Source: a virus
DNA length: 37,240 nucleotides
Strand: one strand, 5' to 3'
Virus record (IMG/VR): IMGVR_UViG_3300031232_000011
Location: 1 to 37,240 of that record
Part shown: positions 8,226 through 36,913 of the stretch, in pieces
How positions within the stretch are numbered: the first letter of the stretch is position 1
How the letters are laid out: each line of letters opens with the position of its first letter
The notes under the pieces: model-generated
What the model saw: only the letters and a program-made list of their open reading frames with translations
Told to the model about the DNA's origin: nothing
The model's database searches: none
Made by a program: the position numbers and the translations under genes

Positions 8226-8245
8226 GAGTTGCACCGGTGCAACTC
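8226..8245. promoter_or_regulatory. 20-bp perfect palindrome, copy 3 (operator-like)
   Basis: GAGTTGCACCGGTGCAACTC, identical to the core of the palindromes at 14801-14822 and 14839-14864. It overlaps the portal stop codon and precedes the protease. The even length and central CpG are the architecture of LacI/GalR-family operators. A T-run (8218-8212) lies 7 nt further along, too far for a standard terminator. Confidence 0.75.
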
Positions 8246-20700: not shown

Positions 20701-21243
20701 TTTGGCCTCGGCAAACGCCCGGTTGATCGCGGCCATGGATTCGTGCGCGCCGCCGGCGTCCGGATGATATAATCGCGCCTTGTCCTTAAACGCGGCCGTG
20801 ATCGCCGTCAGCGACGCCGCCCGATCTACGCCGAGCACTGTCCACCAGTCTTCGTCCCCGGCGCCCGTCCAGGGCAGCGCCAGGTAGCCGGCAAACGCCC
20901 GCTCGATGCTGCCCACGCCCCAGCGCTCCTGCAGCCGCAGCGATTCGACATGCTTGGAAATCGCCCAGAGGTTGTCCTCAACCCGGTCCCACTTGTCACA
21001 AGGCAGAGCGTACGGCCGGGCCCGGAGCTGAAAATAAACGCAAACGCCTTTGTCCTTCGGCTTGGAGCCGAGCGTTACGTTGCTGCTGATCACGAGCTGG
21101 GTGCATTTCGTCAGCTCGAGCTGCCTTTGCACTTCCTCGACGGCCGCAAATACGGTGCGCTCGGCAAACGCCGATCGCAATTGCGCGGCCGCGCGCGGCC
21201 AGCCTGGTGGCCAGCTCAAGGGGTAAGCGCTATGCGCGCTCAT
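20677..21243 (-). CDS. J-domain (DnaJ-like) phage protein
   Basis: 188 residues from the ATG at 21243 (ATGA with the ParB-like gene). Residues 1-125 are a region seen with phage J-proteins (CDKWDRVEDNLWAISKHVES, ERWGVGSIERAFAGY). Residues about 132-180 form a compact J domain: DEDWWTVLGVD, a helix, the HPD motif (160-162) and GGAHESMAAINRAFAEA. HPD is needed to stimulate DnaK, so it may recruit host Hsp70 to the replication complex, as known for other phage/plasmid systems. That role is inference. Confidence 0.8.
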   Translation of the reverse strand: MSAHSAYPLSWPPGWPRAAAQLRSAFAERTVFAAVEEVQRQLELTKCTQLVISSNVTLGSKPKDKGVCVYFQLRARPYALPCDKWDRVEDNLWAISKHVESLRLQERWGVGSIERAFAGYLALPWTGAGDEDWWTVLGVDRAASLTAITAAFKDKARLYHPDAGGAHESMAAINRAFAEAKSERGNAV

Positions 21244-23060
21244 TGCGGCCACCTCTTTCCACCCGTTGCCCGCGGGGCTCTCTTTTTCGCCCGCTTGCCT
21301 GGCTTCCGCTTCATGCTGCCTGTGACGGCCGCCACCGCCTTGGCTGCCGCGCCTGGCTTGCGGCTGACCCGCTTCTTGTCTTTGCGGATTTTGCTGAGGC
21401 TCGGCGCTGGCGCTGCGGCGGTGGGGATGAGATTTTCATTCGTCTTTGCCCAGGCAGTGAATTCTGCGAGCCCTGGCGCGTCGACTCCCCGCCAGCGCAT
21501 CGCGTCGGCGAAAAACAGCAGCGGCACCAGCACTGCTCGCTCCGCTTCGGACTGCTTTTTGAACCACGCTCGAATTACGTGATGCCAACCCTTCGCCGCA
21601 TGTCCCGGGAGCTTCAGCCAACGGCCAAGGAAGGCCGCTCCTTCGCTTTGCAGCCGCTCCAAGGCGACGATTTCTAACCCCTGCCAGAGCCCCGCGTCCC
21701 GCTGCCCATCGATCTTCGTCCGTAACGCGGCGCGCAGATCGTCGAGGCGGTTAAAGGCCGCGGCTTGCCGTTTCTGGGCCGCGGCTTTTTCTTCGCGGAT
21801 ACGTTTGGTATCAGGTGCTGCGGTGGCCGGCTGCCGCCCGTTTTTGCCGCGGAAGATCGGTTCGCCGATCTTTTCTGCGCCGGCGATGATCAGATCCCGG
21901 GAAGCAACTTCTACCGCCGCGCCGGCTTGGTCCATCGCCAGGCAAACTTCCACCTGCAGTCTCTTTTCTTTCAAGGCCGAGACGAGTTCGCGCCAGGTGG
22001 GAGCATTTTTCACGGCCGGCTTGAGCAAGTGCGCGTCTGGGGGGCCATCCAGGGCGACGTAGGGCGAATCGTAGCTGGTGATTCCTCGTGACGCATGCTC
22101 CGGAAATACCTGGCGCGATTCGGCGGCGGTGAGCACGCGCGCCCCCTGCTCTTTCGCCACGGCGGCCGCGCGGTCGAACGCAGCCTGCGCTTTTGCGACA
22201 TAGCACGCGGGCCGGGTGCAGATATCGCCCCGCTGCACATCGCCGAACAGCTCCTTGTTGTTGCCGGTGCGATACGGGCACAGAGAACAGGGCGCGTGAG
22301 GCGCAAACTGCGCCAGGTGCGCGACGAGCGTGGCATCTTCCTCGTCAAACGGCGCGCCCTTCAACTCCCGCATAAAATTCGCCCGCACATAATCCTGGGC
22401 CTCGCGCTTCGTCATCGCCTCGCCGTCATGGCCCTTGATGATTTGCTTCGCGGCGTCGGCCCGCTGCTCCCGATCGGGAATACGCGTGATATACGCCGCC
22501 GTCGTCGCGCCGAGCCGCCCCGCCTGCAGCGCTTTTTGGGCGAAGGGCGGCAAGTCCAGCAATTCCATGCGCCGGTACACGTAGGCTTCGGCCTTGCCGA
22601 GGGATTCGCCGAGCGAGGCGGCCGTGTGGCGGCGCGAGCCGTCGTCGTTTTCGTAGGCGAGCTGCCGCCGAAAAGCCGCGCCTTCCTCGAGCGGCGTCAG
22701 CTGGTTGCGCGCGAGCTGCTCGGCAAGGTTGAGTTCCACGAGCTCGGGATCGGTCAGCTCTTTGATGCGCGCCGGCAACTCCGCCAGGGGGATTTCTTTG
22801 GCCGCGCGCCAGCGGCATTCCCCGCTGACGATTTCATAGGCCGGCGTCCAATCGCCCTGGGGGCGGGCCGCTTCGAGTTGCGAGGGCGTGCTGGTGCCCG
22901 CGCACCAGGCCGGACGGACGAGGAGGTTTTCCAGCACGCCATTTTTTCTGATGTTGGCCCGCAGATCGGCGATGTACGTCCCATCGAAATGCTGGCGCGG
23001 ATTAAGTTTGCTCGGCGCAAACAGCGCGAGCGGGAGGAGCACGGTGTCGGCTAGTTGCAT
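21240..23060 (-). CDS. ParB-like protein with cysteine cluster
   Basis: 606 residues. The N-terminal ParB/Sulfiredoxin-type domain has NPRQHFD, then IVSGECRWRAAKEIPL (about 78-93; the GERRWRA box) and NLAEQLARNQLTPLEEG (111-127). A helix-turn-helix-like section follows (SLGESLGKAEAYVYRRMELL). Cys258, Cys261, Cys281 and Cys286 look like a metal site. The C-terminal third is basic (KIRKDKKRVSRKPGAAAK). No ParA is present, so partition is not its obvious role; it may bind or nick DNA at the origin. Good site AAAAGGG, 7 nt before the ATG. Confidence 0.8.
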   Translation of the reverse strand: MQLADTVLLPLALFAPSKLNPRQHFDGTYIADLRANIRKNGVLENLLVRPAWCAGTSTPSQLEAARPQGDWTPAYEIVSGECRWRAAKEIPLAELPARIKELTDPELVELNLAEQLARNQLTPLEEGAAFRRQLAYENDDGSRRHTAASLGESLGKAEAYVYRRMELLDLPPFAQKALQAGRLGATTAAYITRIPDREQRADAAKQIIKGHDGEAMTKREAQDYVRANFMRELKGAPFDEEDATLVAHLAQFAPHAPCSLCPYRTGNNKELFGDVQRGDICTRPACYVAKAQAAFDRAAAVAKEQGARVLTAAESRQVFPEHASRGITSYDSPYVALDGPPDAHLLKPAVKNAPTWRELVSALKEKRLQVEVCLAMDQAGAAVEVASRDLIIAGAEKIGEPIFRGKNGRQPATAAPDTKRIREEKAAAQKRQAAAFNRLDDLRAALRTKIDGQRDAGLWQGLEIVALERLQSEGAAFLGRWLKLPGHAAKGWHHVIRAWFKKQSEAERAVLVPLLFFADAMRWRGVDAPGLAEFTAWAKTNENLIPTAAAPAPSLSKIRKDKKRVSRKPGAAAKAVAAVTGSMKRKPGKRAKKRAPRATGGKRWPQ

Positions 23061-23090: not shown

Positions 23091-23924
23091 TCACGCGCAG
23101 CGCGCGGCGCCGCCGAGGCGGTTTTGGTTGCCGCGCTGGGCCTCCGCGTAGTGCGCGCAGGCGGTATCCGATTTTTGGAAACGGGCTTTGACGCCGGCGG
23201 CGCCGCGGTCCGCGAGGAAGCGATTGTATTTTTGCTTGATCCGCTCGCACCAGGTCGCGCCTTTCACTCCGAACATGGCGCCGAGTTGGCGGACCGTCAT
23301 GTCGAAGATGAGCGAGGAATAGTTGGCTTTGGCCATCACGAATACCCTCAGGACCGTTTGCTCCGGCGACGGCCCATCGTAGAAAAAGAAGCGAAGGACG
23401 GCGATTTCACAGGTTTTGCGCGCCTGAAAATCCTCCTGCGACTCGCCCTTGCGCGCGGCCCGCAATTGCTGCAACGACACGGCTCGGAAGTGTTGGTGGG
23501 CGCGCAGCCGCTGGTGCGCGACCGCCAGGGTATGCTCGATGATCGCGTCCTGGCGCACGGCCGGCCGGGAGGTCGCCCGGGTGCCCGCCAAGAGCGCGGA
23601 GACGCGCCGCAAGTGCGCCAAGGGCGAAGGCATCACCAGCCATTGCATCGCCCCTAATGGCAGCGTACGCACCAAGCCGGGCTCGAGGGCGCGCGCGAGC
23701 AGATAGAGCCGCTGCATGACGGCCGCGGGGTGAGGCGGATCCGTCAGGAGATAGCCCATCACGCCGGCGAGGGCACTGCCGCGATCGGCGGGCGCCGCGC
23801 GCAACTCGTGCGCCAGGAGCACGGTGAGCGGCGAGCTCGGATCGACGAATTCCGCCACGCCGGAGCGGATCGCGGCCGAAATGGAGATGCACGGTTCGGT
23901 GGCAGTGATGTCCTCGTCCGTCAT
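23091..23924 (-). CDS. Unknown protein with C-terminal helix-turn-helix-like region
   Basis: 277 residues, beginning MTDEDITATEPCISISAAIR. Mostly helical. Near residues 208-240, FDMTVRQLGAMFGVKGATW followed by CERIKQKYNRFL has the spacing of a helix-turn-helix DNA-binding motif. Second gene of the early operon, coupled by ATGA to the first. Its C-terminus has several Asn/Gln/Arg residues. It may be a replication regulator; this is inference. Confidence 0.6.
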   Translation of the reverse strand: MTDEDITATEPCISISAAIRSGVAEFVDPSSPLTVLLAHELRAAPADRGSALAGVMGYLLTDPPHPAAVMQRLYLLARALEPGLVRTLPLGAMQWLVMPSPLAHLRRVSALLAGTRATSRPAVRQDAIIEHTLAVAHQRLRAHQHFRAVSLQQLRAARKGESQEDFQARKTCEIAVLRFFFYDGPSPEQTVLRVFVMAKANYSSLIFDMTVRQLGAMFGVKGATWCERIKQKYNRFLADRGAAGVKARFQKSDTACAHYAEAQRGNQNRLGGAARCA

Positions 23925-24241
23925 GCGCGGCCCTCCCGAACGTAGAGCTCTTTGGCCCGCGGCGCGATGAGCGCCCGCGCCGGCGTTTCTAGCCTTTGTA
24001 GCAATTCCGCGCGCAGACTTACCGCCGCCGGCAGCAAACCGTCGCGTTCGAGCCCGTCGGCCAGCTTAGCCGCCGCGAAGGGCGTATAAACGACGATCCC
24101 TTGCGGGTTGATGGAGCGGTGGCTCGGCAGGTCGATGTTCCCCGGAAGGTGCTTTTCGATATCCCCGGACTGAAGGCCCGTGATCCGCGCTAACTCCGAT
24201 CGGCTAAAGCAAGGCAATGGCGGCAGAAACAAGTAGCTCAT
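23921..24241 (-). CDS. First gene of early operon, small HTH-like protein
   Basis: 106 residues from the ATG at 24241, with a clear AAGGG site 8 nt upstream. FSRSELARITGLQSGDIEKH is helix-turn-helix-like and the rest is helical (AAKLADGLERDGLLPAAV). Being first after a structured leader and terminator-like hairpin, it is a likely early regulator. The next gene overlaps by ATGA. Confidence 0.6.
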   Translation of the reverse strand: MSYLFLPPLPCFSRSELARITGLQSGDIEKHLPGNIDLPSHRSINPQGIVVYTPFAAAKLADGLERDGLLPAAVSLRAELLQRLETPARALIAPRAKELYVREGRA

Positions 24242-24261
24242 AATGGATACCCTTAAAAATT

Positions 24262-24280
24262 GCCGGGATACGCTCCCGGC
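24262..24280 (-). terminator. Attenuator-like hairpin before the early operon
   Basis: On the minus strand GCCGGGA-GCGTA-TCCCGGC (perfect 7-bp stem, 5-nt loop) is followed at once by AATTTTTAAGGG. It is thus an intrinsic-terminator shape with five Ts, placed between the leader and the first ribosome-binding site; the AAGGG right after the T-run is that site. Confidence 0.55.
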
Positions 24281-24281
24281 G

Positions 24282-24621
24282 GTGGCAGATTTTCTGGGCA
24301 TGGAATCTGCGACTCGCCCCTTCCCTCGCGGGAAATCCGATTCGGGATCCCGTGAGGGAAACCCCGAATCGCGAAAGTAAACGAAGCGGCCGGACCATCC
24401 GCTCGAAGTGCTGATGCCGCAGGCGCAATGCGCCGTGGGGCGATGGTCCCGTTTTCCCCCAATGGCCCGAAACAGATGGAGCCGCCAAGCACCCTCCATC
24501 TCCGGCCAGTGAAGAGGCCGCTTCGAAATGAGACACAGGGCATCGCACGGCGTTGAACCCTGCTAGTCTTGAGTCACGGGTTACCCCGAAAGACTTTCCT
24601 ACAATCATGCCCCGTGTCTCA
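24282..24621 (-). ncRNA. Candidate structured leader RNA (multi-stem)
   Basis: Stems seen, in plus coordinates: 24285-24291/24304-24310 (7 bp); 24321-24333/24348-24360 (13 bp with one G-T), which excludes 24339-24346/24363-24370 (8 bp); 24382-24391/24516-24525 (10 bp) closing a multi-branch with 24392-24399/24442-24449 (8 bp, stacked directly on it; inner 24422-24426/24430-24434) and 24463-24467/24504-24508 plus 24474-24481/24494-24501 (5+8 bp); then 24529-24543/24607-24621 (15 bp, one mismatch) with inner 24565-24570/24590-24595 and 24577-24580/24585-24588. Minus orientation is favoured because the attenuator-like hairpin and the first gene follow on that strand. It could also be DNA-level dyads for proteins. 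Confidence 0.45.
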
Positions 24622-24693
24622 AAATGATGGCGGTAGCAGTCGGCGACCGCACTGCGCAGCAAATTACAAACATGGCTGATTCGTGTAGTATTC

Positions 24694-24860
24694 TGCTTCC
24701 AAATTGCTACCAAAACAGGCAAGTATTTGGCTCTCAATGGCTGGATTAAAACTGACCCGCACTCTACGTTAGAGTTTACACGCCTTTTCATGTTGCATCC
24801 TATTGCCCAACAGAGGGCGTCCTTGCTTCCAAGAAAGCAGTCTGCTTCCATGTGCTTCCA
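24694..24860. other. Candidate attP: core dyad with phased TGCTTCCA arm-type repeats
   Basis: Direct repeats TGCTTCCA lie at 24694, 24824, 24843 and 24853, with a variant TGCTACCA at 24705. Spacings of 11, 19 and 10 bp keep them near one DNA face. Between the two groups is ACTCTA-CGT-TAGAGT (24761-24775), a core-like inverted repeat. Two arm groups around a core next to int is the layout of lambda-type attP sites. The repeats could also be operators for int. The exact crossover is not determinable from this sequence. Confidence 0.55.
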
Positions 24861-24872
24861 CCCACTATCACT

Positions 24873-26063
24873 ATGCAAGGTATCTCCGTTTATCTCCGCC
24901 CTGGTCGCCCCACTTACTACGTCGCCTACGACTGCCCCGTGCGCGCCCGTCGCGTATGCGAGTCGACCGGAATCAGCATCAACGATCCGCGCGGGAAGCT
25001 CGGCGCGTATGCCTATGCCCGCGAAAAAAGTCAGAGTGGTGTGGCGCGTGGCCAAGCTCGCGACGAGTCCTGCTGGGAAAACTGGGCGAAAACGTGGCTG
25101 CAAATGCGCTACGCCGGCAACCCCAAGACTCTGGGCAGTTATTTGGGCGCTTGGAAACACCTGAGCTACTATCTGGCCGAACACAAAATCCCGACGCCGC
25201 GTGCCCTCAATTACCGCCACGTGGTGGAGTTTGCCATCTGGCGTGAAACCGTGATCAAAAAGAGAACCGGAAAACACATTTCGAGGAATACCTCCATTCA
25301 CAACATCAAGGTGCTTTCGCGCCTGATGCGGGAAGCGATACGGCGCGGCTTTGCCACGGCCAACCCCTGCCTCGGTTTGTCCGACGATGTACCGGCAACA
25401 CCAGCGCCAAAAAAAGCGGAATTTACCGACTCCGATATCGCGAAAATTCGGAAAGAATTGGCCCGGCGGAAAGCTATCGGCGTAAAAAGTGACTGGATGG
25501 AAATCGCGTTCGAGATTTCGCTCCACCAGGCTTGCCGCCTCTCCGCCACCCAAATCCCGATGGAATGTATCGACCTCGATCTCGACACGATCCAGTTCCA
25601 CGAGAAAGGCGGGCAAATTTTCACGGTGCCACTGCATCCCGGGCTGAAGCCGTTGCTTGCACGCCTGAAAGAGGATGGTCGACTCATCACGTGCAAACTG
25701 CCGACGATCACCGCCAGCCGGGAGTTTATTGCACTGCTCCGAAGCATCGGATTGCCGCACTCGTTTCACTGCCTCCGCGTCACGGGCATCACCCGCATGG
25801 CGCGGGCCGGCATCCCGGAACAACAGTCGATGGCGTATGTGCATCATGGCAGCTGGGCGATTCACAAAATTTATCAGCGGCTCAAGCCGGCGGATGTCCG
25901 GGGGTGTCACGCGGCTCTGGTGTTTTCGCCGCCTGCGGCGCCAGCACCCGTTTCGCCACAAATTCAGGATGCGCATCCAACCACGCCGACACCTTTGCCG
26001 GTGTCGAGTATCGTCCCGAAAAAATCAAAGGCTCACTACCTTGGGCAGCGAGTTGCCGGTTAG
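24873..26063 (+). CDS. int: Tyrosine recombinase (integrase) with overprinted C-terminal tail
   Basis: 396 residues from the ATG at 24873; an in-frame GTG at 24852 overlaps an arm-type repeat and is less likely. The N-terminal region includes a SAM-like arm-binding/core-binding part (WENWAKTWLQMRYAGNPKTL). Catalytic residues visible: Arg222 (QACRLSATQI), Lys245 (HEKGGQ), His299-x-x-Arg302 (HCLR), His324/325 (HHGSW) and Tyr334 (HKIYQRL). It integrates and excises the phage at attP/attB. After residue ~338 comes a 58-residue Pro/Ala-rich tail, which lies antisense to the conserved part of the gene at 25882-26190. Confidence 0.93.
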   Translation: MQGISVYLRPGRPTYYVAYDCPVRARRVCESTGISINDPRGKLGAYAYAREKSQSGVARGQARDESCWENWAKTWLQMRYAGNPKTLGSYLGAWKHLSYYLAEHKIPTPRALNYRHVVEFAIWRETVIKKRTGKHISRNTSIHNIKVLSRLMREAIRRGFATANPCLGLSDDVPATPAPKKAEFTDSDIAKIRKELARRKAIGVKSDWMEIAFEISLHQACRLSATQIPMECIDLDLDTIQFHEKGGQIFTVPLHPGLKPLLARLKEDGRLITCKLPTITASREFIALLRSIGLPHSFHCLRVTGITRMARAGIPEQQSMAYVHHGSWAIHKIYQRLKPADVRGCHAALVFSPPAAPAPVSPQIQDAHPTTPTPLPVSSIVPKKSKAHYLGQRVAG

Positions 26064-36160: not shown

Positions 36161-36403
36161 TCACCGTTGCCGCGTGGCCTGCGGCCCGGTGCTTGTCCTC
36201 AATTCATGTGCTTCTTGCGGTGGTGGTTGGAGCCGCGGCAGCAGCTCTAGAAGCATGCTCCCCGCCGGGTGCGCCAGTCCCTGCTCCCAGTTCTGTAGGT
36301 TTTTTAGTTTCAGGCCCCAGGCCTTTGCGGCCTGGCTCTGGCTGAGAGAGTCCCGCTGGCGGGCCGCTTTTAATAGCTTAGCGAATTGGTTTTTTTGGGC
36401 CAT
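36161..36403 (-). CDS. Small helix-turn-helix (XRE-like) repressor
   Basis: 80 residues. QFAKLLKAARQRDSLSQSQA and AKAWGLKLKNLQNWEQGLA form the helices of an XRE/Cro-type DNA-binding domain. The C-terminus is Pro/Gln-rich. It is divergent from the membrane protein at 36527, with inverted repeats between them, so it probably represses itself and that gene. It lies inside the tail operon, away from the lysogeny block. Confidence 0.75.
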   Translation of the reverse strand: MAQKNQFAKLLKAARQRDSLSQSQAAKAWGLKLKNLQNWEQGLAHPAGSMLLELLPRLQPPPQEAHELRTSTGPQATRQR

Positions 36404-36482: not shown

Positions 36483-36526
36483 ATTTCTCTTGCTAAACTA
36501 TCCCCATTTATTAGGATATGGTCAAT

Positions 36527-36913
36527 ATGAAAACCGAAGACTCGCTGACCTTTGAGCAGGCCATCCCTGCGTATGCTGCCGGTGGTTGGAAAATCATTAG
36601 CGACGGCCCGAGCGGGTTGCAGATGCAGGCACCCAAGAGAATGGGCGGTTTAGACAAGGTCTGCCTGGCTTTCGGCATTCTGACCGTGGTGGCCTACGGA
36701 GTCGGGCTTATCTTTATCGGCATTGCGCTCATCGACTATGCGTTTCTAACCAAGCAAAAAACCAAGCTTTTCACCCGTGATTCGCATTTCTCAAAGGCCG
36801 AAGCCCAAGGCAAGATTCAGCCCAAAAAAACGTCTAGGGCGTTTGTCTGGGTGCTCGCGGTTGCTCTCGTTTTCTTTCTGCTCTTGTTTGCAGCAGTTGC
36901 CTTGAGGCGATAA
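36527..36913 (+). CDS. Membrane protein, moron / exclusion candidate
   Basis: 128 residues from the ATG at 36527; the earlier ATG at 36518 leaves only 1 nt after AGGA, whereas this one has 10. A soluble N-terminus (~45 residues) is followed by hydrophobic segments at about 48-70 (AFGILTVVAYGVGLIFIGIA) and 108-125 (VLAVALVFFLLLFAAVA), with a basic loop between. Lower GC than the neighbours. It has its own regulator and terminator, so expression in the lysogen is likely; a superinfection-exclusion role is a guess. Confidence 0.65.
   Translation: MKTEDSLTFEQAIPAYAAGGWKIISDGPSGLQMQAPKRMGGLDKVCLAFGILTVVAYGVGLIFIGIALIDYAFLTKQKTKLFTRDSHFSKAEAQGKIQPKKTSRAFVWVLAVALVFFLLLFAAVALRR

Follow-up and report, generated by a model that had tools for sequence, protein, structure and literature searches.

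Results

Gene layout and attachment site

The window, by which we mean the whole stretch of DNA that was analysed, is a virus record of 37,240 bases in which nearly all genes lie on the minus strand, a tyrosine integrase being the main exception (Table 1). A gap of about 600 bases separates the integrase from p106, the first gene of the minus-strand series p106-p277-ParB-DnaJ...primase-helicase. The integrase side of this gap is the attachment site, and the remainder, about 24242-24690, is a structured block. The p106 product is predicted to fold as a small winged-HTH protein (pLDDT 74), for which MerR-type PDB structures rank first, weakly (E 0.2).

The attP arm-repeat layout of the window is shared by five further related loci (integrase or att), and most of these have arm repeats that flank or adjoin the 3' end of a tRNA. 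Integrase arm sites are paired at a spacing of about 10-13 bp and, at loci showing either side of attP, occur on each of them; the 7-9-bp arm word is phage-specific (TGCTTCCA, TTGGTGCC, TGCTCCC, TTGTGGCCA, TTGTTCCCA). As read from these words, integrase arm specificity changes while the layout of the arm sites stays constant. Elsewhere in the window, a palindrome with the core TTGCACCGGTGCAA (full form GAGTTGCACCGGTGCAACTC) is present in three copies, at 8229, 14805 and 14845, the last two lying 40 bp apart in the intergenic gap ahead of the helicase gene. Together with the ParB-like gene, these palindromes look like a parS-type centromere, which suggests a partition or phage-plasmid phase. 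On the other side of the genome, an XRE-type HTH gene (RstR/DicA-like; 36161-36403, minus strand) adjoins a divergent ORF (36518-36913, plus strand), and this pair is a candidate immunity module.

Table 1. Features of the operon head and attachment region (window coordinates unless a locus is named).
Feature	Position	Strand	Remarks
Tyrosine integrase	24852-26063	+	divergent from operon
attP region (arm-site locus of the window)	24694-24862	+	integrase arm-type repeats flanking core
Arm-type repeat TGCTTCCA(A/T/C)	starts 24694, 24824, 24843, 24853		attP region
Arm-type repeat variant TGCTACCAA	24705		attP region
Arm-site loci of related phages	L172 1266-1425; L271 1165-1185; L267 10018-10036; L272 3817-3985; L273 3822-3987
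Domain B	24529-24621	-	15-bp hairpin with inner CGGG-GUAA-CCCG hairpin; z -5.15
Domain C, conserved core	24382-24525	-	three-way-junction RNA; MFE -79.2, z -4.4
P1 5' arm CGAAGCGGCC	24516-24525	-	partner 24382-24391
P1 3' arm GGCCGCTTCG	24382-24391	-	all pairs kept in G007 and G001
P2 hairpin	24456-24515	-	base UCUUCA/UGGGGG with three U.G pairs
P2 inner 8-bp stem	24474-24481/24494-24501	-
P3 5' arm GGACCATC	24442-24449	-	all 8 pairs kept in G001
P3 3' arm GATGGTCC	24392-24399	-	abuts P1
Junction J2/3 GGGAAAACGGGAC	24446-24458	-	same in window and G007; G001 differs
Domain E, long hairpin	24309-24372	-	z -4.67
Terminator-like hairpin GCCGGGA-GCGTA-TCCCGGC then AATTTTTAAGGG	24262-24280	-	-15.1 kcal/mol
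p106, first operon gene	23921-24241	-	small predicted winged-HTH protein
p277, downstream operon gene	23091-23924	-
ParB-like gene, downstream operon	21240-23060	-

Folding and non-coding character of the leader

The initial annotation had described about 360 bases of nested inverted repeats in this gap as a new structured leader RNA with an attenuator. All the repeat arms that it named are present at the positions given: the 10-bp stem and the 8-bp stem that abuts it are perfect, both the 8-bp and the 5-bp parts of the two-part stem are found, the 15-bp stem (24529-24543/24607-24621) has 14 Watson-Crick pairs and one G.U on the minus strand, and the 7-bp terminator-shaped hairpin lies at the p106 ribosome-binding site. 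Folding of the minus strand of 24240-24700 gave -209.6 kcal/mol compared with -171.4 +/- 6.0 for shuffled sequences (z -6.3; matched by 0 of 100 shuffles). Moreover, a scan of the whole record in windows of 300 bases singled out 24300-24629 on the minus strand as the part of the 37-kb phage with the strongest folding, with z values over the leader region of -6.1 to -7.1 against a window mean of -0.24 (SD 1.24) and a next best value of -3.5. The plus strand of the leader folds well too (z -6.1), so that the region is an extreme folding outlier on both strands.

The leader was also said to be non-coding, and codon statistics agree: its codon log-odds is -0.13 compared with 0.26 +/- 0.14 for the phage genes, with no coding signal in any frame. 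Both an N-terminal extension of p106 and a 96-aa ORF running through the leader were rejected as coding on these statistics. An open frame of 590 aa (24204-25976, minus strand), antisense to the integrase, crosses the leader without a stop; codon statistics give no support for coding in its leader part. Searches of Rfam 15 at curated score returned no match for the window or for the element in loci L271 and L172 of the relatives described below, and blastn found no second put-like copy elsewhere in the window.

A three-way junction found in two related phages

The core of the leader (domain C) is a three-way junction closed by the 10-bp P1, with a long irregular hairpin (P2) and an 8-bp P3 stacked directly on P1. 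Relatives of the phage were reached through an improved TerL alignment. The nearest is carried by an Opitutaceae MAG (genome G007, L173), with a phage TerL 74% identical to that of the window, and the second is the IMG/VR contig G001 (TerL 58%, integrase 38%). When 273 Opitutales genomes were searched with a covariance model (R1) based solely on the three-way junction of the window, a single match reached E <= 0.01 (G007 contig C103:919-1033, minus strand; 53 bits, E 1.1e-5). This match falls in the MAG carrying the related phage and at the homologous position, in the order attR, element, operon. A second-round model from the window and G007 copies (R3) retrieved no further genome among 388 Verrucomicrobiota genomes and no match in 1.44 Mb of other phage loci. 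Within the 51 kb of G001, the top rank of R3 was a weak match (L172 1160-1069, minus strand; 20.7 bits, E 0.027) about 105 bases inside the attachment arm, a spot that had previously been picked out by eye.

The G007 homologue was detected by the covariance model and not by blastn at the threshold used; similarity searches of the leader DNA against phages, and blastn in the 273 Opitutales genomes, gave chance matches only. Single-sequence protein scans with ParB, TerL and integrase had no matches, ParB relatives had no early-region synteny with the window, and an integrase profile run over 378 Verrucomicrobiota genomes added a single further integrase, which is distant and whose short contig lacks the operon. 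Two other loci were considered and set aside as carriers of the element. L272 has an integrase 56% identical to that of the window with a different early module and no element, and L273 shares a 9-mer (GATGCGGCC) after attP but no convincing helix pair. As an observation in its own right, the attachment of the integrase at L272 3803-5176 to a different early module points to module exchange at attP.

The core measures 115-144 nt, with arms up to 124 nt apart. Folded alone, the G007 copy is modestly better than shuffles (z -1.75), the minimum-energy fold of the G001 copy keeps P1 but not P3, and P2 is absent or much shorter in G001.

Compensatory changes and strand

In G007, P1 is formed by CGATGCGGCC/GGCCGCATCG and extended to 15 perfect pairs, and in G001 it is formed by CGATGCGGAC/GTCCGTATCG with 11 pairs. 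The arms of P3 are GGACCATC/GATGGTCC in the window, GGACTGCC/GGTAGTCC in G007 and AGCCGGGC/GCTCGGCT in G001, and P3 abuts the P1 3' arm in all three phages. Comparison of 24 pairs (P1, P2 base and P3) between the window and G007 showed 18 unchanged, 1 changed on one side, 5 changed on both sides and 0 broken; the six basal pairs of P2 contribute 2 of the two-sided changes with 0 breaks, and P3 another 2 together with the one-sided, compatible change. Among 18 pairs compared with G001, 10 are unchanged, 2 one-sided, 6 two-sided and 0 broken. When the same number of 3'-arm substitutions was placed randomly, all pairs were kept in 8 of 400000 trials, and control 3' partners slid out of register paired at 37-50% compared with 98.8%. 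A P1 and an abutting P3 of comparable size occurred in 1-2% of shuffled regions each. Since the flanking GGGAAAACGGGAC and GTCCGGCCGC are identical, the placement of P1 and P3 in G007 is independent of the structural alignment; placement in G001 relies on that alignment, which makes it the weaker copy.

Wherever a pair is not Watson-Crick, in eight cases of eight, it is G.U when read on the operon strand and A.C when read on the opposite one, which favors an RNA in the operon sense, an argument that is partly circular because the helices were chosen on the minus strand. Compensatory changes are found at the homologous locus of the two relatives, one of them (G001) weak, and they favor structure for 24382-24525. 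A structured RNA conserved in the window and its relatives is, in our estimate, very likely. As the element lies on the operon sense strand close to the attachment site with its helices kept, we conclude that it is a new, lineage-restricted structured leader RNA. The earlier description is therefore supported for the three-way junction; for the whole 360 nt as one conserved element it has so far no support, as searches with models of the 15-bp hairpin brought up no homologue.

Parts found in the window only

The covariance model of domain B (R2) found no homologue, and this domain is so far lineage-specific; both relatives have hairpins resembling it ahead of the element, with unconserved sequence, and no homology is claimed for them. 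Domain B contains three copies of TTGAGWCACRGGG, at 24528-24540 (plus), 24569-24581 (plus) and 24610-24622 (minus), whose starts are spaced by exactly 41 and 41 bp, or about four helical turns. The arm 24611-24622 can pair with either 24569-24580 or 24529-24540, the two pairings being mutually exclusive, and 0 of 20000 shuffled loops matched it equally well. The domain may act at the RNA level, as a switch, or at the DNA level, as an operator array, and p106, as a predicted small winged-HTH protein, is a candidate binder of domain B.

The domain E hairpin, which by inspection was not found in the relatives, is mutually exclusive with a 9-bp stem (24338-24346/24363-24371), and prefix folds switch between these two forms. 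Downstream of it, the G+C-rich 7-bp hairpin followed by AATTTTT has the shape of an intrinsic terminator ahead of the first gene; it forms freely in prefix folds, and shuffles indicate that one such hairpin per kb is expected by chance. No terminator-like site follows the element close by on the same strand in G007 or G001, and no conserved alternative anti-terminator pairing was found. The proposed attenuator is thus borne out as a hairpin with a U tract in the window, and not as a conserved feature.

Prophage context and gene order

The G007 locus L271 1-1300 is the right end of a prophage that is split from its integrase end over two contigs. On the minus strand, an intact tRNA-Ser (1213-1300) is followed by the arm repeats, the element, an SLT cell-wall transglycosylase and the p106 homologue. 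At the other prophage end (L267 9900-11162), the integrase is accompanied by 31 bp that repeat the 3' end of tRNA-Ser and form the attL/attR core. The intact host tRNA-Ser reads directly into the prophage operon, of which the transglycosylase is the first gene.

In all three phages the element sits just inside the attachment site on the operon sense strand. It is followed by p106 after about 140 nt in the window and by the transglycosylase start codon after 36 nt in G007, and in G001 it lies inside a p106-like ORF; p106 homologues adjoin it in both relatives. Because the attachment-site position is fixed while the next gene and its distance change, an action on the operon as a whole, through control of elongation, is favored over one on the translation of a single gene. 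The element falls within an 89-aa ORF in G007 and a 167-aa ORF in G001. The distance from P1 to the junction differs by 23 nt between the window and G007, and the difference in element length between G007 and G001 is not a multiple of three. These differences break the frame while the helices are kept, so no reading frame is shared through the element.

Discussion

Our results describe, in a virus of Opitutaceae-type bacteria, a conserved RNA at the junction between attachment site and operon, which is probably a control switch that turns virus genes on. How it works is less certain. By analogy, we tentatively favor a control of transcription into the operon in cis, comparable to that by HK022 put or Tn916 canT, at a little under an even chance; this preference is based on the fixed position between att and operon together with these two precedents. 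The leader RNA would act on RNA polymerase or its elongation factors at the operon entry and would decide whether transcription continues into the one-direction block of phage genes. In the window, the decision point may be whether polymerase reads through the hairpin 24262-24280, which immediately precedes the p106 ribosome-binding site. Because tRNA-Ser reads into the operon in the G007 lysogen, a conditional element at this junction would shield the lytic genes from read-through out of host tRNA-Ser, and phage-initiated or induced transcription would pass it. Nevertheless, the computations do not distinguish between antitermination, attenuation and effects on RNA stability or on translation.

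The HK022 put RNA, of about 70 nt with two stem-loops, is a phage leader RNA that alone makes the polymerase terminator-resistant (PMC9378689). The core may be likened to it as a structured RNA that heads an early phage operon in sense orientation and would act on transcription elongation with no phage protein dedicated to the task. However, the core is a three-way junction of 115-144 nt closed by a P1 of 10-15 bp, a layout unlike that of the put family, whose RNAs suppress intrinsic and Rho-dependent termination through the beta' zinc-binding domain. As to position, put lies in the transcript just downstream of an early promoter; the element heads the operon, and no sigma-70-like promoter was found. 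Tn916 combines an insulating terminator (T1), which blocks host transcription between the element end and the genes, with the cis-acting antitermination RNA canT, which permits read-through after excision and in the excised circle lies ahead of the attachment junction (PMC11658703). A control at the element end against host read-through would be common to both systems, given the tRNA-Ser of G007; in contrast to Tn916, the present element lies inward of the att site, toward the operon, and has no conserved terminator. The B. subtilis EAR and pLS20 conAn2 antitermination RNAs (PMC11658703) are likewise cis-acting RNAs heading long operons, but they differ in host phylum and structure, with no Rfam match and no detectable similarity to the element.

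The structured block might instead be a separate trans-acting phage RNA of roughly 350-450 nt, with 24262-24280 as its 3' end, which we consider possible but unlikely. Antisense immunity RNAs use competing complementary pairing, and domain B may resemble the P4/P1-type RNAs in that, within a leader heading a replication operon, one of its arms has two complements that exclude each other. The block is self-contained and ends in a terminator shape, and an RNA of this kind would bind a protein or another RNA, as do those immunity RNAs or IsrK, a prophage RNA made by termination of a leader (PMC4825925). Nevertheless, domain B with its repeats and the terminator are not found in the relatives, where the core overlaps ORFs and no terminator lies close by on the same strand.

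A leader acting after transcription, on stability, on processing (e.g. of tRNA-linked read-through transcripts) or on translation of the first gene, would be in keeping with the 36 nt that part the element from the transglycosylase start codon in G007 and with the window hairpin set against the p106 ribosome-binding site. Since which gene comes next, and how far away, is different in each of the three phages, we regard it as rather unlikely.

The domain B repeats might also be DNA-level sites, an operator array or a part of the att/excision complex, with RNA folding incidental. Their exact 41/41-bp spacing, the winged-HTH appearance of p106 and the adjoining attP arm sites speak for such a role, but domain C would be left unexplained, and its G.U pairs, the stacking of P3 on P1 and the long reach between its arms indicate a single strand, so that we find this improbable. 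Finally, chance or similarity from a shared short ORF rather than RNA, as might be read into the ORFs overlapping the element in G007 and G001 and brief peptide matches (ENGT, PAAS) in one of the frames, is very improbable given the broken frame, the lack of codon signal in the window and the compensatory pairs kept.

Cis control of transcription into the operon thus stays our preferred, tentative reading. Its widest form, an as yet undescribed RNA-only element family of temperate Opitutaceae phages that modify RNA polymerase at the phage-chromosome junction, is a speculation that we hold to be quite unlikely; such a family would keep tRNA read-through out of the lytic genes and, on induction, make a block of roughly 35 kb terminator-resistant, which we likewise doubt. 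To our knowledge, very few phage operons are known to be controlled by RNA alone, HK022 put being the phage example, and hardly any phage molecular biology exists for the Opitutaceae. A covarying Opitutaceae leader would be an independent case of such control and a ready assay system. Moreover, an element at the att site, with a tRNA reading into the lytic operon, may make it testable how integrated elements stay silent beside strong host transcription.
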